From: a virus | IMG/VR virus record: IMGVR_UViG_3300023184_000301 | Span: 1 to 36,859 of that record | Direction: 5' to 3' (one strand) | DNA length: 36,859 bases | Part shown: positions 1-36,859 of the stretch, piece after piece | How positions within the stretch are numbered: position 1 is the stretch's first letter | How the letters are laid out: each line of letters begins with the position of its first letter | Translations under genes and position numbers: made by a program | Notes under the pieces: model-generated | Seen by the model: the letters and a program-made list of their open reading frames with translations, nothing else | Database searches by the model: none | Told to the model about the DNA's origin: nothing

Positions 1-3000
1 CTTTGCGTTGGAATGTTTAACAGAATATCCTTAACCGGCTTAACAGAGCCAACCGCACGCTTAGATGCGCCGCCTTTTGTGCCTACTCCGCCAACATATC
101 CAGAGCCAGTATGAACAAAGTCCAGGTCATCACGCTGCAGTGGGACGTAATGCTTATATGTTTTATTCCATTGGTCAATAGTGTCCTGAGTCTCAAGACC
201 GCCATCAACCAACATCTCTTGAGTCCCCTCAATGATGTCATCAATTTTTGATGCAAAGCGCTCTAGCTTGGCCTTCTCTGCTGCTGGTAAGTTAGCCAAA
301 TAATCTTGAGCGTCAGTTGTTTTAATTCCTGAGCCAACATCCTGAACATCTGGAGATAAATTAATTTTGTTAATCTGTTCGTTACGTTCTTCTGCATGGC
401 GATTATGAAGATACTTCTCAAGCTCATCAACAGTTATTCCCTGCTCCTTCATTTGCTCAAGCAGTGGCCGAAAATCTTCTTCTAGGAAATTTTTAATACG
501 CTCAGCGGAGCGCCCATGATAAAGAGTCTCTTTTGTGTATGCATCCAGGCGCTCATCAATCTGGCCGACTTTTTCGTTAATTCTTTCAATTACCCGTTTG
601 GTGTCTACTTGTTTATCTGCAACTTGATAGATAAGACCATCAGTAAATGATGGCTCAACCGTATCCCAAAGAGCTGTTGGAGCTGCATTGCCTTGATAGT
701 TTTGAATAGAGTAGTAATCACCAGCTCCAAGCATGTAGTTGGTGACAAACTTGCCATCGGACTTTGCAAGGCTATCCAGCGCACGGATGATGGAGGCGTC
801 AGACTTTAAGCCGAACAATGACTTGATCTTCTGGCCTAGCTCTTTGAGCCAGTTCTTTAGCCTTGCGAGTACCCCGCCTCTTACGGCATCAAAACGGGCC
901 TTAACAATGTCGGAGCCATTGACAGCCCAGAACTCAGATGGGTTAAAGTACTCGTAAAGATTCCTTGGAACCATGCCAAGCTTAAGCATTTCCATTGCAA
1001 ATTCTTCACTAGACCCACCTTTCTGAAGTGCTTCTAATAAAGATTTTATTTGCTCGTAAGCTTTTTCTGCGCCCTTGGGTACTTCTATATTGGCTATATT
1101 TCCGTTGCCATAGTGGGCCTCCATAAGGGCGGCAAAGTAAAGCTTTTCATTCGGCGTTTTAGCTGCTTTAGCGGCTTTGGCAAGCTGAGATGACCAAGCC
1201 CTGCGGATAGCCTGCTGCACCTTGGTTGGCATCATGCGTTCAAGATGATGCAAGATCTCATGTACTGTTGTTAAGTCAGATCCGCCATTTTTAATAATCG
1301 TCATGATCCGCTTATAGGCGTCGTATTGACCACCTTGACCTGGCTTGCCTTTGCCAATAATAGATATGCCCAAGTCGCTGACAAGGTCTTCGTTGTTCAC
1401 CATAAACCAAGTGGCTAAGTCACGGGCTTCGCGTGAAATTTCTTTGGCATCGACAGCTTGATTCAATCTCGTTTGAATGTGCAAGAACCCACGCTTGCGC
1501 TCATTGGGCTCCTCTGCAAGACGTTGCTCTTCATCAGCAGCAATTGCAGCATCAGCCCGCTCAACAAACTGTTCGTCGGTTATGCGGCCATCTTTGCGCA
1601 TCCGATTGAGAGTCTTGATAGTGCGCTTCAGAGAGTCTGAGCGTTTCTTTTGCTCACCCTCTGCGTAACCTTCAATGCTGTAGTAAGTCGGCTCATTCGG
1701 CTCTTTAGGCTCTTTGCCTGGAGCCTCTTCTTCGGTCTTAACCTCAAGCTTATTTGCCTCAGTTTCACGGCCAGTTTGCTTGCGCTCAATCCCAGGCTTA
1801 GGAGCTGGAACTTGCTTCTCTGTTACGGTTGTCTTGATGACGGGCTCAATCTTCTGGCGGATGATGTCATCACTATACATGGCTTTACCATTGATAAAGT
1901 CCATGACGTTTGCGCCGTTCTCAGGAACGATAAATATCTTGGCGCCATCCATCTGGTTAAGGTGGTTGGTGATTAGGTACTTGAAGGTTTCTTTGTTGAC
2001 GTTAATACAGCCAAAGGAATAGCGCGAGTCCTCTGCTCCAGGCTTATCTAGCGCAGCGAGGCGTTGTTTGGCATCAGTCTCATGCGTCCATACAGAGTGC
2101 ATGATCGTGTTGGAGTACGGGCCGTTCTTCCCCATGTGGGATTTATCCAGCACAAACACCTTACCAAAGTCATAGTCACCAGCGGTATACGCCTCACCAG
2201 CACTACGCTTAGCGTCACGCAGGCCGAGATCAAACACGCCGGCCGGAGTAATCCTATTGGCTACTATCTCATTGTCACCATGCATGTAGTCGCCGATGGC
2301 CTTGCCAAACAAAGTCTTGCTTTGGAGCAATAGAGATCCATCAGGATTAAACAGGTAGGTGTTACCGCTGCGCTTGTCCGCAACAATGAACAGCTTGTCG
2401 TTAGCCTTGAGTTGGGCCTCCAGGGCTGGGTAGATGACGCCATACGCACGCTTAGCGGCATCAGACATCGACTGCGCTTCTTTTGGTAGGTCCTTGATAA
2501 CCTCACTGGTCTTGATGTCGTACTGAGGCACTGCAATCGTGTACGGCTTGCTGACAAACTGAGGGTTAAAGACAATCGCCACAGACAGGACGCCGTTTGC
2601 CAGCTGGCGGATGATTGAACGGATTCTTCCCTTAACAGCCACAGCGCCCTGGTTGATGAATGCAATGACATCCTTGCGGACTCTTTCAATGAACTCATTA
2701 GTGCCGCGCTTGGCCCCGTACAAATCTTCCAGGGTGTTGATCTGGTCTTTTTTAAGCTTGGAGACTTGGTCTTCAAGTAGCGCGTGCTGCTTCTCTTCGC
2801 CTATTTCTGTGAACTCTCCTTCAATCGTGTACGGCTCATTAGTAAGCCGAGGAGCGGCAGGCTTTTCTGCCGGGCCCAGCACCTCTACTTCTGGCTCACG
2901 AACCATAACTTTGTTAGAGTCTTCCGCAAAGTCAAAGCCAAACTTTTTATAGAGATCCTCGAGCTGCTGGCGGTCTAGGCCAAAGTTCTTTTCCTTGATA

Positions 3001-6000
3001 TTTACAATCGGGACTGGCTCAATGTAGAGAGTAACCCCATATTTATCGGCAGCGTCCGCAATGTTTTGGAGCGCTTCGTTAGCCTTGCCCTGGTTGCGCT
3101 TGGCTTGGTCTACCAGTAGGGCATTGATTACCAGGTCAGTAGATTCACCTTGACCAGTCAATACGGCATTCTTGTTTTGGAACAACACAAGCTGGGGTGT
3201 AAGAGATACACGGACGCCATCTTTCTCAAAAGTGCGATGGGGCTCGCCGCCCTTGTCAACATAAGTACGAGGATCATTAAGTGCCAAAACCTCATAGCCG
3301 TCATTGAACAATACAGAGGCCATAGGGTAGCGCAGGTTGCGGCCCTCTGGAGTTTCTACTGGCTCGGGTTTAGCTTCTATTGGCTTACTTACATAGCCAA
3401 ACTTTTCAGCATTTTTAATTGACTCCGCGTCCATTGATAAGGGGATATTTTTAACCCCAGAATCACGCAGATATGCATATCTATGCCGGCCATCTCCAAA
3501 AACAATAGCCCCATCTTTGTCTACAGAAACATTGGGCGCTTCTATAGATCTTGCGTCTTTAATAAATTCTGCAAATTTTTTATACCTTCCCTCTATCCCA
3601 CCCTCTCCGCCTTTTCCAACATATTGCCATGTTGTTTTAGAAAAAGCTTTATCAAAAACACTAGAGTTAACTTCAACTAATTGATTTTCTTTTTCCAGCC
3701 GATGCATTGTTACCGGAATATCCCTGCCATTAACTCGAATAATATTTTCAGTCTTGGTAGGCGTTTCTTCCTCTTGGGCAAAGATATCCTTTTGGCCCTG
3801 TGCAACTGCAATATCAGCAGCGCGGTTACTGCCTGTTAAAGTAAATTCACCAACTTCACGGTCAGCTTTGGCCCTATCCTCAGCCTCTTTATCGGCCTTG
3901 GCTTTAGCGGCTTCTTTTTCCTCTTGCTCAATTCGGTACTTTTCTTTAGCTCTTAATCCTTCTGGGGTTGGTTTAGTAAGCGCTTCTCCTTCATCTGGTT
4001 CAGTAGATGGAATCTCGCCTTTGGGCTCAATGCTGCGAGCATTGATTTCAGCCTCTCTTTGTTCGTCTGCTGCTTCTTGAAGTTCAAGGTTCTGCTCCTC
4101 AATAGTTAAGTAGTCATTAATTAATTTTTCAGCCTCTTCAACAGATCCAAAGATTTGCTCAATCTCTACCTGTGAGCTGTAGGGAATGTAGTTCTGACCA
4201 CGCACCTGATCTTTGATGTACTCTTCCGCTTCTTGGCCGTCAAAGCCAGGGACGTTAGAGCGCATTTGGAACGGCAGAAATTCATCCAAATCGCCGTCTG
4301 AAACCATATCCGCGATTGACTTGCCGCTGGATCCTTTTTTGGCCTGAAGTTTCTTTTGGTAAATCTGAGGGCTCTTGCCAAACAATTCAGCTATGTCGCT
4401 AGATCCAAGTTTGCCAGTCAAGGCAGTCCATAGGCTTAGTCCAGGCTTGCCTTTGATCTTGCTAACAGCCTTCTCACCCTCTGTAACCCTTTGCTCCGCC
4501 TCAGTAACTTCCTGGGGTCGTGGAACAGCTTTACGAATTACTTGCTGGGCTTGGGCGGCAGAGTCGTTGGCACGCTTGATGGAAAGATTAAATTTATCCG
4601 CATCGGCGCGCTTGTATTCATTCTGAATAGCGTAGTGATCTCGCAAAAGCTTCAATCCATCAGACAACAAATTGCTGTATTGGGTTTTTAAATTACCCAA
4701 GCCAATGGGAAATTTTGTATCGTTAACTTGATAGCCAAGATTATTAAGAGCTTTAGTTACATCCTGGATAGATGATTCAACCTTGCCAAAAGCAGCCTTT
4801 GCTTCAGGCGATGCTGTCTTTTGAAATGTGTCGTAATACTTTTGCTCATTGGGATCTAAAAATTCAGACCACTTAAAGCCCTCTTCTTTGGCCTCTGTCT
4901 TTCCTTGTTTTGCCTGAAACTCTTGCAGCTTTTCTTGATAAAAAGGAATAGAGTCTTTTCTGAAAATTCCTCTTTTAACACTATTGCGTACTGTATCTGC
5001 AAAATCTTTTTGACCAGCGGCCTCAATTTGGTCAGCTAAATCCAGCGCTTGTTTTTGATCGGGGGTAGGATTGCTTAAAGTTTTTTTGTCAAACTCTCCT
5101 ACTATGCGATCTCTCTCAGCTTGGATTTTGTCCAACTGATCTTGGCTAATACGCCCATCCCTGAAAGCCTTCTTTGCATTAAAACTAACAGTGTTAATGA
5201 TGGTGTATTGCTCTTCAATAGGGCGATCTTTAAGATTGTCTAATGTTAGTCTTTCAGCAGGGGCTGCGGGCGCTTGTTCTCCTTGCGCTTCTGCTTGCTT
5301 GGCTTTAGGGGTTTCAATGCCACTTAAGGCTCCTTCAATAGAGAGAGGGGTTGGAGTAGTTGGAGTTTGTGCTTCCATTTGCTTGCGAACAAACGGGCCG
5401 GCCTCGGCAACTTTTGGCTGGATCTCTGTAGAGGTTTTGGGTTGTTGGGCGGTTGGAATTACTGCGGACGGTTTTTTGGCTTTAAATGCAGCAGTAGTTG
5501 TATGTGGGGTGCGAGTTCCATCTGGACGAATTCCTCCGGCATCAGAAAACTCTGTTTCAGCAATTTTTTCTAATGGAACGCCTTCCTTGTACTGCTGCTC
5601 AGCGCGCGGGCTCATCTTTATGACTTGGCCCCGCTCGCCATCCTCTACAAAAATTAATTTTCCAGTTTTGTTATCTATTTGAATTTTTCCACTAATTTTT
5701 CCATTATCTTCATCAGAGGTAAGATAAGAATTAATTATTTCAATAGCCGGAGAATTAGTGGTTGACTGGGAAATTACACCATTGCGTGTTACTACTCTAT
5801 GAGTCCCTGCTTCGTCTGTTTTTTCAAATACCATTGTTCCTGGCTGGTATATTGGTTCACCCGTTTTTTCATTAATTTTATTTTCTTTTTGCGTCCAACC
5901 GGTAGGGTCAAATGCAGTATTTTGCGTTTCAACATTAACAGGTGGTAATGTTGTGGCAGGAGGTTGTCCTAGCGCCTCACGCAGCATTGCCTCTGTATCC

Positions 6001-7583
6001 ATAGACTCAGAGGGGGCAGCAGTCAAGCCAGTAATGTCAGCCGGAAGTGGTGCAATAGGGGTTCCGCCGCTTGGTGGGGCTGGAGGTTCTCCTGGACGCG
6101 CTGTAGGAGGTGTTATCTCTAAGCTAGGAACATTGGCGCGGATATTTGTTCCTTGGCGCACGCCGGCATTCGGGCTTAATAATTGGCGTACCAATTCATC
6201 TATTGCCGTCTGGTTTACAGTAGCGCCCTTTGCGCCCTCTTCTAGTGCTTTTGCAAGGATATCGGCACGAATTTGCTCGCCTGTCTTAGCCCCGTAAACC
6301 CTTGCTCCAGTAGTTACGCCTCCTCCAATAACTCCACCAAGCATACCTGCGGCAGCATTATTTAAAATATCTTTAATGTTTTCTTCTGTAAAAAATTCAT
6401 CTTTTTCTTTTTCGCGAACTTGACCGGCTATTTGAACACCTTGCTGCGCTCCCTCTTGTAAAGCTTCCTCAAGCGATCCTTTAGGGATTTCTTTAAGCCC
6501 CTCTTTAAACGCCTTCTTTTTAGTTTCTCCAATAACTACCTCTTTAACGCCACGCTTAGCCAATGTTGCAATTGGGCCAAGGGCGGTATCTAATGCGCCA
6601 TTAATAATGCCAATAGCTAATGTTGTATCTCCAGTTTTCTTTATATAGTCTGTAATTGCATCTATTTTTTGATTATCTGGAAGGTCTTTAATTTTTTCTT
6701 GAATAAATTGCAAGCGGTCGCCAAGAGCCTGGGCAGCACCCATTGGCGCGCTAACCGCAAAAAGACCAGCAGGACCAGTAGCAGCTCCAGCCAATATTAA
6801 TGGCGCCATTTGAACGGGTAAATTTCCTGCGTAATAAGCAAGCCAATTGGTAAAATCTTTGACGTTCTCAATATCCGTCATGTTGGCCGTGCGGCCGGTA
6901 TACTTAACTGCATCTTTTTGGTATTGATCCAATGTATTGATAGATGCAGCAACAAAATCTTTACGGCGTCCAATTTCACCTATTGTTCGCTCGCGAATTT
7001 TTTCTCGCATTGCAGGGTCAGCGCCAAAATATGCACGAGCTTGCGAGGTAGAGATATCCAAGCCGCGCAATTGATCAGGGCTAGTGATTTCACCAGTCTC
7101 AATCTTGTCAAAAAGATCAAGCCTTTTCTGAACAGTTCCAAGTGCGCCAACATCTTTAAGTACGCTAGCTTGTTCCCACATTGAAGGCAGAGCAATTTTT
7201 GCAGCGCTTTCCACGCCCTTGCCAAGCTCCTCCATTGGCCGAGCTTCTGACGGCGGACGAGGCTCTTTAGGAGGTTGAGCTATTGTTGGTTCAGTGCTGG
7301 GCGCACCAATAGCGCTCATTACCTGCTCTTCAGGAGATAGTGTGAACTCAGCCGGAGGTTTTGCTGGCGTCTTTAGTAGGCTTCTTATGCCTGCGCTTGA
7401 TGGGGTGGCCGCAGCATAAGCCTGCTCTTGAGGAGACAGGGCTGGATTACCGGCAAAGTCAGGCACCTTCGGAGTAGGAGCTGGCGGCTGCTTCTCAAGA
7501 TAGCCTAGGATCTTAGCTTTAGCCTCAGCAGGATCTTCAGTGGTAATGTCGTACTGCTGACCCTTGTACTCATAAATAGGCAT
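1..7583 (-). CDS. Giant polyvalent protein, 3' end beyond window (ParB-like, GNAT, L,D-transpeptidase, zincin)
   Basis: One uninterrupted frame begins at ATG 7583, with AAGG six bases upstream, and is still open at base 1, giving at least 2527 residues. It starts MPIYEYKGQQYDITTEDPAE, like other phage virion proteins. Small-residue hydrophobic stretches lie at about 242-283, 315-345 and 405-435. A ParB/sulfiredoxin-like segment (1275-1385) holds GDGRHR with H1367. A GNAT-like segment (1418-1560) holds RNQGKA at 1496-1501 and a late YKKFGF. An L,D-transpeptidase (YkuD-type) segment (1725-1895) has H1829 and YSFGCIN with C1859. A zincin motif, HEILH, is at 2108-2112. A C-terminal helical region holds YLHNRHAEERN near 2385-2400. 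Mixed enzyme domains in one giant phage protein match the polyvalent proteins described by Iyer, Aravind and colleagues. Its place after the ejection genes suggests it is packaged and injected with the DNA; that is inference. Domain calls are from motifs read by eye. Confidence 0.88.
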   Translation of the reverse strand, partial: MPIYEYKGQQYDITTEDPAEAKAKILGYLEKQPPAPTPKVPDFAGNPALSPQEQAYAAATPSSAGIRSLLKTPAKPPAEFTLSPEEQVMSAIGAPSTEPTIAQPPKEPRPPSEARPMEELGKGVESAAKIALPSMWEQASVLKDVGALGTVQKRLDLFDKIETGEITSPDQLRGLDISTSQARAYFGADPAMREKIRERTIGEIGRRKDFVAASINTLDQYQKDAVKYTGRTANMTDIENVKDFTNWLAYYAGNLPVQMAPLILAGAATGPAGLFAVSAPMGAAQALGDRLQFIQEKIKDLPDNQKIDAITDYIKKTGDTTLAIGIINGALDTALGPIATLAKRGVKEVVIGETKKKAFKEGLKEIPKGSLEEALQEGAQQGVQIAGQVREKEKDEFFTEENIKDILNNAAAGMLGGVIGGGVTTGARVYGAKTGEQIRADILAKALEEGAKGATVNQTAIDELVRQLLSPNAGVRQGTNIRANVPSLEITPPTARPGEPPAPPSGGTPIAPLPADITGLTAAPSESMDTEAMLREALGQPPATTLPPVNVETQNTAFDPTGWTQKENKINEKTGEPIYQPGTMVFEKTDEAGTHRVVTRNGVISQSTTNSPAIEIINSYLTSDEDNGKISGKIQIDNKTGKLIFVEDGERGQVIKMSPRAEQQYKEGVPLEKIAETEFSDAGGIRPDGTRTPHTTTAAFKAKKPSAVIPTAQQPKTSTEIQPKVAEAGPFVRKQMEAQTPTTPTPLSIEGALSGIETPKAKQAEAQGEQAPAAPAERLTLDNLKDRPIEEQYTIINTVSFNAKKAFRDGRISQDQLDKIQAERDRIVGEFDKKTLSNPTPDQKQALDLADQIEAAGQKDFADTVRNSVKRGIFRKDSIPFYQEKLQEFQAKQGKTEAKEEGFKWSEFLDPNEQKYYDTFQKTASPEAKAAFGKVESSIQDVTKALNNLGYQVNDTKFPIGLGNLKTQYSNLLSDGLKLLRDHYAIQNEYKRADADKFNLSIKRANDSAAQAQQVIRKAVPRPQEVTEAEQRVTEGEKAVSKIKGKPGLSLWTALTGKLGSSDIAELFGKSPQIYQKKLQAKKGSSGKSIADMVSDGDLDEFLPFQMRSNVPGFDGQEAEEYIKDQVRGQNYIPYSSQVEIEQIFGSVEEAEKLINDYLTIEEQNLELQEAADEQREAEINARSIEPKGEIPSTEPDEGEALTKPTPEGLRAKEKYRIEQEEKEAAKAKADKEAEDRAKADREVGEFTLTGSNRAADIAVAQGQKDIFAQEEETPTKTENIIRVNGRDIPVTMHRLEKENQLVEVNSSVFDKAFSKTTWQYVGKGGEGGIEGRYKKFAEFIKDARSIEAPNVSVDKDGAIVFGDGRHRYAYLRDSGVKNIPLSMDAESIKNAEKFGYVSKPIEAKPEPVETPEGRNLRYPMASVLFNDGYEVLALNDPRTYVDKGGEPHRTFEKDGVRVSLTPQLVLFQNKNAVLTGQGESTDLVINALLVDQAKRNQGKANEALQNIADAADKYGVTLYIEPVPIVNIKEKNFGLDRQQLEDLYKKFGFDFAEDSNKVMVREPEVEVLGPAEKPAAPRLTNEPYTIEGEFTEIGEEKQHALLEDQVSKLKKDQINTLEDLYGAKRGTNEFIERVRKDVIAFINQGAVAVKGRIRSIIRQLANGVLSVAIVFNPQFVSKPYTIAVPQYDIKTSEVIKDLPKEAQSMSDAAKRAYGVIYPALEAQLKANDKLFIVADKRSGNTYLFNPDGSLLLQSKTLFGKAIGDYMHGDNEIVANRITPAGVFDLGLRDAKRSAGEAYTAGDYDFGKVFVLDKSHMGKNGPYSNTIMHSVWTHETDAKQRLAALDKPGAEDSRYSFGCINVNKETFKYLITNHLNQMDGAKIFIVPENGANVMDFINGKAMYSDDIIRQKIEPVIKTTVTEKQVPAPKPGIERKQTGRETEANKLEVKTEEEAPGKEPKEPNEPTYYSIEGYAEGEQKKRSDSLKRTIKTLNRMRKDGRITDEQFVERADAAIAADEEQRLAEEPNERKRGFLHIQTRLNQAVDAKEISREARDLATWFMVNNEDLVSDLGISIIGKGKPGQGGQYDAYKRIMTIIKNGGSDLTTVHEILHHLERMMPTKVQQAIRRAWSSQLAKAAKAAKTPNEKLYFAALMEAHYGNGNIANIEVPKGAEKAYEQIKSLLEALQKGGSSEEFAMEMLKLGMVPRNLYEYFNPSEFWAVNGSDIVKARFDAVRGGVLARLKNWLKELGQKIKSLFGLKSDASIIRALDSLAKSDGKFVTNYMLGAGDYYSIQNYQGNAAPTALWDTVEPSFTDGLIYQVADKQVDTKRVIERINEKVGQIDERLDAYTKETLYHGRSAERIKNFLEEDFRPLLEQMKEQGITVDELEKYLHNRHAEERNEQINKINLSPDVQDVGSGIKTTDAQDYLANLPAAEKAKLERFASKIDDIIEGTQEMLVDGGLETQDTIDQWNKTYKHYVPLQRDDLDFVHTGSGYVGGVGTKGGASKRAVGSVKPVKDILLNIPTQ

Positions 7584-24943: not shown

Positions 24944-25875
24944 TACATGCCACCCCCACCAATAAATGACATACGGGGGACTAATCGCAAAGTAGCTTTT
25001 TCATGGTCTTCGCCTGCTGCAAGTTTGTACTGCTCTTCATAAACTGCCTTAAGCATCTCCAGCCGGCCCATCAATTCTGGAACCTTCATGGCTATGTAGT
25101 AAGCCAAACCAGCCGTTACAGCAGGCAAAAACCTGAAATTCATGTCCGCTGTTTCAACACCTTTGCCGGCATCTTGAACACGGCGTAGTCGGTAGTAAAC
25201 AAACTGATAAGTCTGTGAACCATCAGGAGTAGGCCAAACTGTGATAGCAGGTAACTGCGGAACATTAACAGCTGTTAAAGTTGTATGTGAGGCGGCGGTT
25301 GTATTGTTCTGTCCACGAAACACTCCACCTAGGGTATTCCCTGATATGTAGGTATAGTAGATATCTTCATTGTCCAGCCGGATGTAGCCAGATCCAGCCA
25401 GATCAACAACAGTACTCAGGGTAATTGAGTCAGCCGTAGCTGTAATAGCGCCGTTTAAAGTGGCAGTAGTGGGGCCAACTTCACCAGACAAGCGCTGTAT
25501 CCATACTTGGATTGGACGCCCCTGGACCAGCTTGTTTGGAATGGTGGCGTAGGTTGATACGCTAATCCTGGTAATGCTCAAGTCAGACTGGGTAGATGCT
25601 ACGTTTGGCTGGGTCCGAATGACATGGTCAAGTAGGTCAATCGTGTCAGTTGGTAGAGCGTAAGTATTAAGACCCTGAGTTAGGGTAATAGTACCAGTCT
25701 CAATGGTCCACATATTTAGACCACGATTAGCCCACTCTATGGTCATCAAGTTAAGTGATCTACGCGCTGTACGCAAATCATAACCAGAACGCATCTCACG
25801 CCCAGCCCGCTCCCAAGCCTCTTCAGCAAGTTCCGTAAACTCTAGGTTAAAGGCTGTGGTTCCGGTAGTGGACAT
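24943..25875 (-). CDS. Head-tail adaptor-type protein (P22 gp4-like role) with inserted beta module
   Basis: 310 residues. The N-terminal helices (FTELAEEAWERAGREMRSGY and TARRSLNLMTIEWANRGLNM) and the C-terminal helical part (MKVPELMGRLEMLKAVYEEQ) are those of portal-binding adaptors. A beta insert at about 137-204 contains NEDIYYTYISGNTLGGVFRG and resembles the module in the protein at 12016-12891. It would dock beneath the portal and extend the DNA channel. A second, shorter adaptor-like gene lies downstream, so one may be the adaptor and the other a nozzle or second ring. Assignment rests on helix pattern and position. Confidence 0.8.
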   Translation of the reverse strand: MSTTGTTAFNLEFTELAEEAWERAGREMRSGYDLRTARRSLNLMTIEWANRGLNMWTIETGTITLTQGLNTYALPTDTIDLLDHVIRTQPNVASTQSDLSITRISVSTYATIPNKLVQGRPIQVWIQRLSGEVGPTTATLNGAITATADSITLSTVVDLAGSGYIRLDNEDIYYTYISGNTLGGVFRGQNNTTAASHTTLTAVNVPQLPAITVWPTPDGSQTYQFVYYRLRRVQDAGKGVETADMNFRFLPAVTAGLAYYIAMKVPELMGRLEMLKAVYEEQYKLAAGEDHEKATLRLVPRMSFIGGGGM

Positions 25876-34683: not shown

Positions 34684-36183
34684 TTAGTAATAAGATGTCT
34701 TGCGCCTGAAAGCGCGGATCTCGTCTTGCTCATCTGTCTGCAAACGAATAAAGCCGCCCTTCCTGAACCTGATTAATGCCTGGGTAGCGGAGTCAACCAA
34801 GTCATCATTCTCTGCATTAGGGAAAGCGGCCATCTCTTCTATTAGCTCGTCGGCCCATCTTGTAGACGGAGCCCAGACCTTTCCACTAGCAAACAGATCA
34901 GCTACAGAGTTAATCCTCACCATCTTATCATTACCCCTGCTGGGCGTAAACTCTTGGACGGGGATCCCCATCGCTCTTAATTCAAAGATTAGCGGCGCTC
35001 CTGAAGCCTTGGCCTCAACTACAAACGCATCAGGCTCCCACTGCTTATAGTGGTTAAACGCTTTTTCCTTTAGCTCTGGAAACTCCATCCGGCGCTTAAA
35101 AGAATCCAGCAAAATAATATTGGCGTCGTTAGGGTTCTCGTTAATATAGAAAACACCCCAGGTAGTACAAGCCGAATAGTCGGACCGCTCTGTCTTTAAG
35201 AATGCAGTATCCCAGCTTTGGATAATGAACTCACACCTAGGCGGGTCCTCTGCTGTCCATTCCTTCCACCACTCCCTCTTAACAATCGCTCCTTGTTCTG
35301 AGGTTGGGCTTTGTTGATACTGGGCGTTCCATTTTGAGACTGGCAGTTCTGAGCGTAGAGCTTCGAGTTCTTCAAGGCTCCAGAATTCAGGCCATAAAGG
35401 TTTGTCGCTGGGCAGTATCGCGGGGAAGTCGATTACCTCCCACTCGTCGTTCCCGTCTTTCTCAATAGAGGATTGGAGGATTCTCCCCGTCAGGTCCCTC
35501 TTGGCCCAGCGGGTCATAACTACTACGATAGATCCTCCGGGCTGTAGACGCTGCCTAGGTCCAGATGTGTACCACTCGTATACTTTATCAAAGACAGAAG
35601 GATCTCCGGCGGCTATAGCAGCCTCTTGCTCAGAGTGAGGGTCATCAATAATAAGTAGATCCGCACCCTTACCCGTCACCGTTCCCCCTACACCGATAGC
35701 AAAATACTCCCCGTCCTTATTAGTAGACCAACGGCCGGCCGCCTTACTGTCTTGCCTAAGATTAACATTGGGAAAGATCTTGGCGTACTGTTCACTGCCT
35801 ACAAGGTTCCTTACCTTACGCCCAAACCCTACTGCAAGCTCAGCCGTATTAGAAGTCTGGATGATCTTTTTGTTAGGGTATTTACCTAGGAACCAAGCCG
35901 GTAGCATGTAGCTGGCAAACTCTGACTTCGTATGCCGGGGTGGCATGTTGATGATCAGTCGCTTAATCTTTCCCGACGCAATGTCCTCAAACTTCCTAGC
36001 CATCACCTTATGGTGTCTGCCATTAATAAACCCCGGCCACATTGAGTGAACAAACTTCAAGAAGTCCGCCTGCGCCTCTTCCCTGGCTAAAGATGCCCGG
36101 TACTCATCAAGCTCGTCAAAGAAAGCCTCCTGCTCATTAACAGGCAAAAGCTCTATCGCACGACTGATAGCGTCAATATTCAT
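34684..36183 (-). CDS. terL: Terminase large subunit (TerL)
   Basis: 499 residues, typical size. ATPase half: deviant Walker A MPPRHTKS at 80-87, Walker B LLIIDDPHSE at 176-185 with D180/D181, and a C-motif VVVMTRW at 220-226. Nuclease half (RNase H fold): D325 in IQSWDTAF, E390 in VVEAKASGAPLIFEL, and the DDLVDS acidic cluster at 460-465. It pumps DNA into the prohead and cuts concatemers. The ATG overlaps the stop of the winged-helix gene (ATGA), so the two are translationally coupled, which also makes that gene a candidate small subunit. Confidence 0.96.
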   Translation of the reverse strand: MNIDAISRAIELLPVNEQEAFFDELDEYRASLAREEAQADFLKFVHSMWPGFINGRHHKVMARKFEDIASGKIKRLIINMPPRHTKSEFASYMLPAWFLGKYPNKKIIQTSNTAELAVGFGRKVRNLVGSEQYAKIFPNVNLRQDSKAAGRWSTNKDGEYFAIGVGGTVTGKGADLLIIDDPHSEQEAAIAAGDPSVFDKVYEWYTSGPRQRLQPGGSIVVVMTRWAKRDLTGRILQSSIEKDGNDEWEVIDFPAILPSDKPLWPEFWSLEELEALRSELPVSKWNAQYQQSPTSEQGAIVKREWWKEWTAEDPPRCEFIIQSWDTAFLKTERSDYSACTTWGVFYINENPNDANIILLDSFKRRMEFPELKEKAFNHYKQWEPDAFVVEAKASGAPLIFELRAMGIPVQEFTPSRGNDKMVRINSVADLFASGKVWAPSTRWADELIEEMAAFPNAENDDLVDSATQALIRFRKGGFIRLQTDEQDEIRAFRRKTSYY

Positions 36184-36401
36184 ATGTTGCGCATCGACAA
36201 ATAACTAGGCCGAACACTGCGGGCGCTCTTACTCACCCGCTTACAAATCCCAAGATCACAAAGCTTTTTTACCACCCTATGAACATTACCCCGACCCTTA
36301 TCCCCAGTCTGGTACATGATGTCATCTATAGACGGCCCATACCCAAAGTTCTTCCAGTACTCATCTATCACAAGAAAAACCGTCCGCTGCTTCTCAGTCA
36401 T
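36180..36401 (-). CDS. LexA-type winged-helix protein; regulator or candidate small terminase subunit
   Basis: 73 residues from ATG 36401 (MTEKQRTVFLVIDEYWKNFG), preceded by AAGGAG at six bases; the ATG at 36458 would add 19 residues overlapping the upstream gene. YGPSIDDIMYQTGDKGRGNV and HRVVKKLCDLGICKR match the LexA N-terminal DNA-binding domain (helix-turn-helix about 24-50, wing after). There is no LexA peptidase domain. A 24-bp palindrome lies 46 bases upstream of its start. Known cases: LexA-like domains are transcription factors; small terminase subunits carry helix-turn-helix domains and sit just before terL. I cannot decide between the two. Confidence 0.85.
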   Translation of the reverse strand: MTEKQRTVFLVIDEYWKNFGYGPSIDDIMYQTGDKGRGNVHRVVKKLCDLGICKRVSKSARSVRPSYLSMRNI

Positions 36402-36435: not shown

Positions 36436-36690
36436 TTAGGATATAACAACTTTAACACCTGTTAAAGTTGGCCAATAGATGACGGGCGTCTCTATACCTA
36501 GGTACTTGCCTTCGATAGCAAATGAAATGAACTCGCGCGCCTCTTCTTCAGTCATTTGCTTCATCAACGTCTTTACCATTCTCTCCCCATCATATATAGC
36601 CTTAGTAACCAAAGCCGCACCACCTCCATTAGGAACCCACATATCAGCTTGCCCCATAAGAGCATAGTCAAACCCATCAAACTTTAACAT
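36436..36690 (-). CDS. Small protein of unknown function before the winged-helix gene
   Basis: 84 residues beginning MLKFDGFDYALMGQADMWVP, with GGAALVTKAIYDGERMVKTL and TEEEAREFISFAIEGKYLGI. The short stretches resemble single-domain phage proteins, but I do not recognise a family. Shine-Dalgarno GAAGGA precedes the ATG at about 11 bases. Copies of AACTTTAACA flank or overlap its start, and a third sits in the palindrome at its 3' end, so it may be regulated with the next gene. Confidence 0.72.
   Translation of the reverse strand: MLKFDGFDYALMGQADMWVPNGGGAALVTKAIYDGERMVKTLMKQMTEEEAREFISFAIEGKYLGIETPVIYWPTLTGVKVVIS
36447..36470. promoter_or_regulatory. 24-bp palindrome upstream of the winged-helix gene
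   Basis: CAACTTTAACA-CC-TGTTAAAGTTG is a perfect inverted repeat with 11-base arms and two central bases. It overlaps the last codons of the upstream gene. The arms contain the decamer AACTTTAACA, also found at 36680 and 36714. It could be an operator bound by the adjacent DNA-binding protein, or a packaging recognition element. Confidence 0.7.
36680..36689 (+). promoter_or_regulatory. Decamer AACTTTAACA at the start codon of the 84-residue gene
   Basis: Same orientation as the left arm of the palindrome at 36447-36470 and the copy at 36714. On the minus strand it covers the start codon (TGTTAAAGTT), so a bound protein could block initiation or transcription. Confidence 0.5.
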
Positions 36691-36713
36691 TGTTATAGTT
36701 CCTTCAGTTTTTT

Positions 36714-36723
36714 AACTTTAACA
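36714..36723 (+). promoter_or_regulatory. Decamer AACTTTAACA upstream of the 84-residue gene
   Basis: Third direct copy, 34 bases from the copy at 36680. It lies just beyond the U-tract of the likely terminator, in the leader of the gene starting at 36690. Confidence 0.5.
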
Positions 36724-36767
36724 AAAATATATACCCCCACCCTTTCTCGTACAGAAACAAAGGGGGG
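36722..36767 (-). terminator. Likely rho-independent terminator at the end of the upstream gene
   Basis: On the minus strand, CCCCCCTTT (36759-36767) can pair with AAAGGGTGGGGG (36734-36745) with one bulge, followed by TATATATTTTTG. It lies two bases after the stop of the partial gene at the right edge. The loop is 13 bases and alternative pairings exist, so strength is uncertain. Confidence 0.45.
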
Positions 36768-36768
36768 C

Positions 36769-36858
36769 CTATTCGTCAAAATCATCTACTATCTCTGATT
36801 CTGTTAATGTTGACCCCTCCCCCTGTTTTGGCTGAGATCGTTTGAGAATCAGAGATAG
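36769..36858 (-). CDS. 3' end of an upstream gene (partial, right edge)
   Basis: An open frame enters from the right edge and ends at TAG 36769, giving 29 residues: LSLILKRSQPKQGEGSTLTE then SEIVDDFDE. The acidic ending and the terminator-like hairpin right after support a true C-terminus. Too short to identify. Confidence 0.45.
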   Translation of the reverse strand, partial: LSLILKRSQPKQGEGSTLTESEIVDDFDE

Positions 36859-36859
36859 T
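36788..36859. repeat. 15-bp inverted repeat ending exactly at the window edge
   Basis: ACTATCTCTGATTCT (36788-36802) and AGAATCAGAGATAGT (36845-36859) are perfect inverted copies 42 bases apart. The outer arm ends at the last base of the window. Confidence 0.6.

Follow-up and report, generated by a model that had tools for sequence, protein, structure and literature searches.

KorB, a ParB-family protein, acts from distant OB operators to silence plasmid genes; it slides along the DNA and is stalled by the small protein KorA (PMC11790492). ParB and Noc can switch specificity through a few DNA-contacting residues, and R173 of Caulobacter ParB is among four residues that have been shown to bring the switch about (PMC7383237). 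In phages, ParB-like proteins encoded near terL and DNA methylases are known from the ParB-Tls locus (PMC6536676), and a survey of the ParB fold takes in phages (PMC12704722). The sites and roles of phage ParB-like proteins are mostly unclear, and searches of open-access text brought up no phage ParB site network with co-varying specificity.

The DNA analysed (the window) is an IMG/VR fragment, linear and 36,859 bases in length, whose relatives reach ~60-65 kb. By TerL, the closest named relatives are DSL-LC04 and the Pelagibacter phages HTVC023P, HTVC027P and 023Pt_psg01, at only 54-58% identity. The palindromes built on the decamer AACTTTAACA are probably genome-specific parS/OB-like sites of a phage protein with the ParB/KorB fold, which from the sequence comparisons below would serve as a phage-wide regulator or organiser rather than in ParA-driven partition.

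Boxes and genes at the terS-terL end

Read along the minus strand, this end of the window holds the end of terS, a hairpin with a T-rich tail, the boxes together with an 84-aa open reading frame (ORF), a 73-aa winged-helix gene, terL and the portal gene. The features are as follows.

36769-36859, minus strand: 3' part of terS, truncated where the window stops
36802-36811, minus strand: half-site-like AACATTAACA, one mismatch, within the terS coding sequence
36722-36768, minus strand: terminator-like hairpin after terS, CCCCCC...GGGGG followed by TATATATTTTT
36714-36723, plus strand: lone half-site AACTTTAACA, without an inverted partner
36680-36700, no strand: site 2, AACTTTAACA-T-TGTTATAGTT, an imperfect palindrome spanning the ATG of the 84-aa ORF
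36447-36470, no strand: site 1, 24-bp palindrome CAACTTTAACA-CC-TGTTAAAGTTG, proposed as parS/OB-like, at the 3' end of the 84-aa ORF
36436-36690, minus strand: 84-aa ORF, phrog_13182, function not assigned, bracketed by sites 1 and 2
36180-36401, minus strand: 73-aa winged-helix gene resembling the LexA DNA-binding domain (Pfam, model and fold matches)
34684-36183, minus strand: terL

The first-pass annotation had noticed three direct copies of the decamer and an inverted one forming a 24-bp palindrome, and all of these were recovered, the direct copies starting at 36448, 36680 and 36714 (plus strand) and the inverted copy occupying 36460-36469 (minus strand). These four copies are packed into 276 bases, and only one further exact copy occurs in the window, at 25273 on the minus strand. 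Five copies compare with a shuffle mean of 0.14 (maximum 2 of 200), and the four in the last 424 bases (36436-36859) with a mean of 0.0015 (maximum 1 of 2000), such that the count is far above shuffles. In site 2 the inverted partner, AACTATAACA, has one mismatch and lies at 36691-36700 on the minus strand after a spacer of one base; this site is kept in L087, L162, L099 and L083. Site 1 lies 46-69 bases upstream of the winged-helix gene, outside that gene, and overlaps the -35 of a promoter-like TTAACA-16-TATCCT ahead of the winged-helix and terL genes, which by itself is at chance level. Relatives carry a palindrome at the same place as site 1, with its sequence co-changed, and 67 of 107 distinct 200-bp gap sequences contain a palindrome with arms of at least 8/9, versus 5.2% of shuffled gaps.

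The two palindromes lie over the start and at the end of the 84-aa ORF, as if marking a replaceable gene slot. Some relatives lack this ORF (L083, L004), and there both palindromes sit close together. The hairpin that precedes the boxes, just downstream of the terS end, has a fold of -17.5 kcal/mol (z -2.0) and is kept in relatives; a simple terminator scan did not pick it up.

The 73-aa gene overlaps terL by four bases (36180-36183), as the first-pass annotation had it, and lies just upstream of terL in relatives. Its LexA-like label also holds: the protein scores 26.4 bits against Pfam LexA_DNA_bind PF01726 (cut-off 23.7), and structures of LexA DNA-binding domains (1lea, 3jso) match its model. 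The chain stops after the wing, without the C-terminal self-cleaving peptidase domain, and the protein is a bare LexA-type DNA-binding domain. A winged-helix search of the annotated phage collection returned no match. The suggestion that this gene stands in for terS was mistaken. Pfam and phrog searches gave the 73-aa protein no TerS family match, and a full-length TerS of 257 aa is encoded upstream by a separate gene, as seen in relative G001 (phrog_51, E 1e-5); the winged-helix protein is therefore not TerS.

Dispersed palindromes across the phage family

The ~60-kb aquatic phage relatives carry about 5-14 palindromes per genome. Scanning whole genomes of relatives with the generic pattern ACNNTAACA-(1-2)-TGTTANNGT yielded 4-10 places per record in most of them, versus 0-0.9 in shuffles, while G008 and G007 use other sequences. 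When no sequence was assumed, the same motifs ranked first or close to first among the palindrome families of most relatives, against about 0-1, and 2.4 at most, in shuffles, and in G008 the search gave GTGGAACAAGTTCCAC, with 14 copies at three mismatches allowed. The version of the palindrome differs from genome to genome and is common to all sites within one genome; G020 has CATATTATCA and G010 has CATATTTTCA at the same three places. The exact-core pattern TAACANNTGTTA gave few copies across 21 records because the core itself varies. The first-pass annotation had held that many copies scattered elsewhere would speak against a function for the boxes; copies elsewhere do exist, but they are few and several occupy conserved places.

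Recurrent places are the gap between terS and the winged-helix gene, the gap next to RuvC, codon 98 of the primase and, in the virion region, codons ~390-550 of a giant gene and codon 201 of another gene. The dispersed sites in the window are as follows.

25261-25282, no strand: dispersed site AACATTAACA-GC-TGTTAAAGTT, codon 201 of the virion-region gene
5931-5952, no strand: dispersed site AACATTAACA-GG-TGGTAATGTT, codon ~547 of the giant virion gene

The former falls at the same codon in G001, G018, G004 and G015. The latter has counterparts at codons ~390-550 in 14 of 16 genomes, each with its own site sequence, where the 16 are genomes with an own-type site located in the giant gene, counted by hand. 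In this gene the palindrome is kept as the encoded amino acids vary (DIITDNM, DIFTENM, DTNTVSV), which argues for selection on the DNA. Across sites, 15 of 63 lie outside conserved coding sequence versus 3.7 expected, and a coarse map-level test for shared places, applied to sites outside the gap, gave 71 coincidences where 47 +/- 6.5 were expected (with five sequence types, 165/5000). Conservation of place outside the gap is real but uneven, and this test of it only moderate. The giant gene itself (window 3-7583) encodes at least 2527 aa here and about 3000-4700 aa in relatives, in most of which its N-terminal linker carries the site.

Palindromes that bracket a variable small gene, and copies inside coding genes, could be explained by mobile or self-spreading repeats that are homogenised within each genome and have no binding protein. 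Such repeats would, however, have to occupy several conserved places despite their differing sequences, and their sequence would have to follow the helix of the ParB-like protein described below; we regard this explanation as very unlikely. As RNA the palindrome folds at -10.4 kcal/mol (z -3.3). We rejected an RNA hairpin, as many copies have non-pairing mismatches (e.g. TGGTAAAGTT) and a hairpin needs no genome-wide common sequence.

More distant relatives also have repeats in the gap upstream of the winged-helix gene. L060 and L074 carry several copies of TTGGAACAAGTTCCAA there and at the end of the upstream gene, a set resembling the GTGGAACAAGTTCCAC set of G008 and G019. In another distant group, L068 and L072, the gap holds a repeated A+T-rich AGAAAAATTTAAATTATTCTGC-like element with no clear palindrome.

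The ParB-like protein and its co-variation with the sites

The ParB-like protein (cl13) has 267 aa in G001 (39116-39919), and its gene lies ~8 kb from terL, beside helicase and primase genes. Sequence searches link it to phrog_1033, 'ParB-like partition protein' (E 5e-16), and to the PDB entries 7o0n, a ParB (E 5e-5), and 7bnk; its Pfam ParB_N match is below the cut-off. The best matches of its model (Foldseek, VIA-align) are ParB, Noc and KorB, including KorB 8qa9 over residues 1-144 (Z 13.1, rmsd 2.8, 135 aligned). Sequence and model agree on a predicted N-terminal ParB/sulfiredoxin fold, and the model has a helix-turn-helix (HTH) at 122-143. Compared with the canonical CTP-binding Box II and Box III motifs, GxxR (GFHR) is invariant and the third motif reads ANxxHG. 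The gene is absent from the 36,859-base window; it probably sits in the ~25 kb that the fragment does not cover, and for the window's own helix type we take that of G001, NMT. In the ~62-kb gene list of G001 (L164-L167), inspection by eye suggests an ERF-like annealing protein, a helicase and a primase but brought out no obvious DNA polymerase, unlike in related Pelagibacter phages.

For the co-variation table, 72 further loci were fetched around the ParB-like gene. Base -3 of the site follows residue 2 of the recognition helix. Met goes with A (TAACA) in 41 of 45 cases, and the remaining four palindromes, which are otherwise unlike the family, probably arose by chance; Ser or Ala goes with T (TATCA/TTTCA) in 11 of 11, Gln with C (TTCCA) in 4 of 6, and Lys, in one case, with A plus a change at the next base. 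The contrast of Met with Ser/Ala has P 8e-10 with sites taken as independent, which overstates it because sites of one genome are not independent, and 0.008 on collapsed helix types. Within the same winged-helix clade, helix SMT occurs with ATATTAACA, IST with ATATTATCA, LAT with ATATTTTCA and VQT with ACTATTCCA. On a tree from which the HTH was left out, helix residue 2 must have changed at least six times, and the co-variation is therefore not a single inherited event. By a hand alignment of the HTHs, we infer that helix residue 1 corresponds to Caulobacter ParB R173. L289-L291 have a VQT ParB yet a TAACA palindrome near RuvC (L289 1069, L291 777, locus coordinates), and look like a mosaic between specificities, or a recent recombinant, by sequence. 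On the same contig as its TAACA-type palindrome, L289 has TTCCA-type palindromes downstream.

An unbiased column scan of 11 conserved proteins gave helix residue 2 as the best ParB column, at 0.41 of site entropy, and the top six columns of ParB are all confined to the HTH (residues 118-135 in G007 numbering). The best winged-helix column reached 0.14 and the other proteins 0.23 or less, except for column 112 of RuvC, which scored above that of ParB on only 16 sequences. The ParB-like helix thus tracks site changes best, which points to the ParB-like protein, and not the winged-helix protein or the terminase, as the binder; direct binding by it is strongly implied by this co-variation.

The first-pass annotation had offered the boxes as operators of the LexA-like protein, through which it would repress its own late operon. 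The boxes do adjoin the 73-aa gene, the protein has a LexA-type DNA-binding fold, and the promoter-like element, albeit at chance level, overlaps the palindrome. However, the winged-helix recognition helix GRGNVHRVVKKL is essentially unchanged across relatives with palindromes TAATTAACA, CATATTATCA and CATATTTTCA, whose 73-aa proteins are nearly identical (G007, G010, G020), the sites are dispersed over the genome, and the column scan favours ParB. We therefore rejected the winged-helix protein as the binder and consider this reading very unlikely; there is good support for the boxes as binding sites of a protein, and it is the assignment to this one that fails. The 73-aa protein could bind some other site in the terS-terL region. 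A ribbon-helix-helix protein (cl10) was also rejected, its strand (VPYSVYLP/IPYSVYLP) being near constant across site types.

Iterated TerS binding at a pac- or cos-like site was the other function proposed. The boxes adjoin terS and terL, and of the whole-protein distances that of TerS correlates most strongly with site divergence (partial rho 0.48, against 0.38 for the winged-helix protein and 0.24 for ParB). But TerS is the product of a gene distinct from the winged-helix gene, the genome carries the sites at several places, and the associated TerS columns, 169-174, overlap palindromes within terS of some relatives (codon ~171), from which part of the distance signal comes. We rejected TerS as the binder and consider a pac or cos role very unlikely.

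Proposed mechanism and comparison with known systems

A dimer of the ParB-like protein, which would comprise the N-terminal ParB/sulfiredoxin fold, the HTH and a C-terminal coiled coil, may read each palindrome with its HTH. Acting from roughly 5-14 sites around a ~62-kb genome, it would be a phage-wide regulator or organiser, as KorB is on plasmid RK2, and the sites between terS and the winged-helix-terL operon would control entry into that operon. We favour such a regulator or organiser acting at late-operon entry, and infer nucleotide-dependent clamp loading and a transcriptional effect. Partition is unlikely, as no ParA-type AAA_31 (PF13614) match was found in nine near-complete relatives (control genomes positive, 14/14), no tyrosine integrase was found in the same number of near-complete relatives, and the ParB-like N termini, which read MTEKI-L-KIRLDGG, show no ParA-binding motif, given near the N terminus as LG-R/K-GL in the fold survey (PMC12704722). 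A more speculative extension, unlikely as a whole, is a phage pair akin to KorB and KorA, in which the ParB-like protein would load at dispersed sites and slide, the small winged-helix protein would capture or lock it and so time the packaging-gene switch, and specificity switching would stop co-infecting relatives from cross-regulating.

Collectively, the data pair, from sequence alone, a phage ParB-like protein with a site network. With one specificity residue changed at least six times in nature, alongside corresponding changes in the DNA, the family provides a ready set for studying the evolution of ParB-type recognition, and the protein is a candidate regulator of late-gene entry in a widespread uncultured aquatic phage group.

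The stoperators of cluster A mycobacteriophages (PMC6550527, PMC9283540) are likewise many sites dispersed over a phage genome for one phage protein, but they are asymmetric and belong to temperate phages, where an immunity repressor binds them, whereas here the sites are palindromes, the protein has a predicted ParB fold, and no integrase was found. The ParB-Tls locus differs in that the ParB-like gene here lies away from terL, in a helicase and primase neighbourhood. ParB-parS and Noc-NBS (PMC7383237, PMC8429893) would share with this family the recognition of palindromes by an HTH in which a few residues set specificity; the phage family differs in its several natural specificity types and scattered sites, with no ParA and no ParA-binding motif seen. 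KorB would be the closest working model for the phage protein. The phage system, known from sequence, differs from KorB in its phage setting, in having no ParA match and in site sequences that vary between close relatives. Like KorB/OB of RK2 (PMC11790492), it would combine a ParB-family protein, matched in fold over the N-domain and HTH, with short operators, which on the plasmid lie near and far from promoters, and a small DNA-binding partner, KorA in RK2, has its possible counterpart in the small winged-helix gene beside the phage site.
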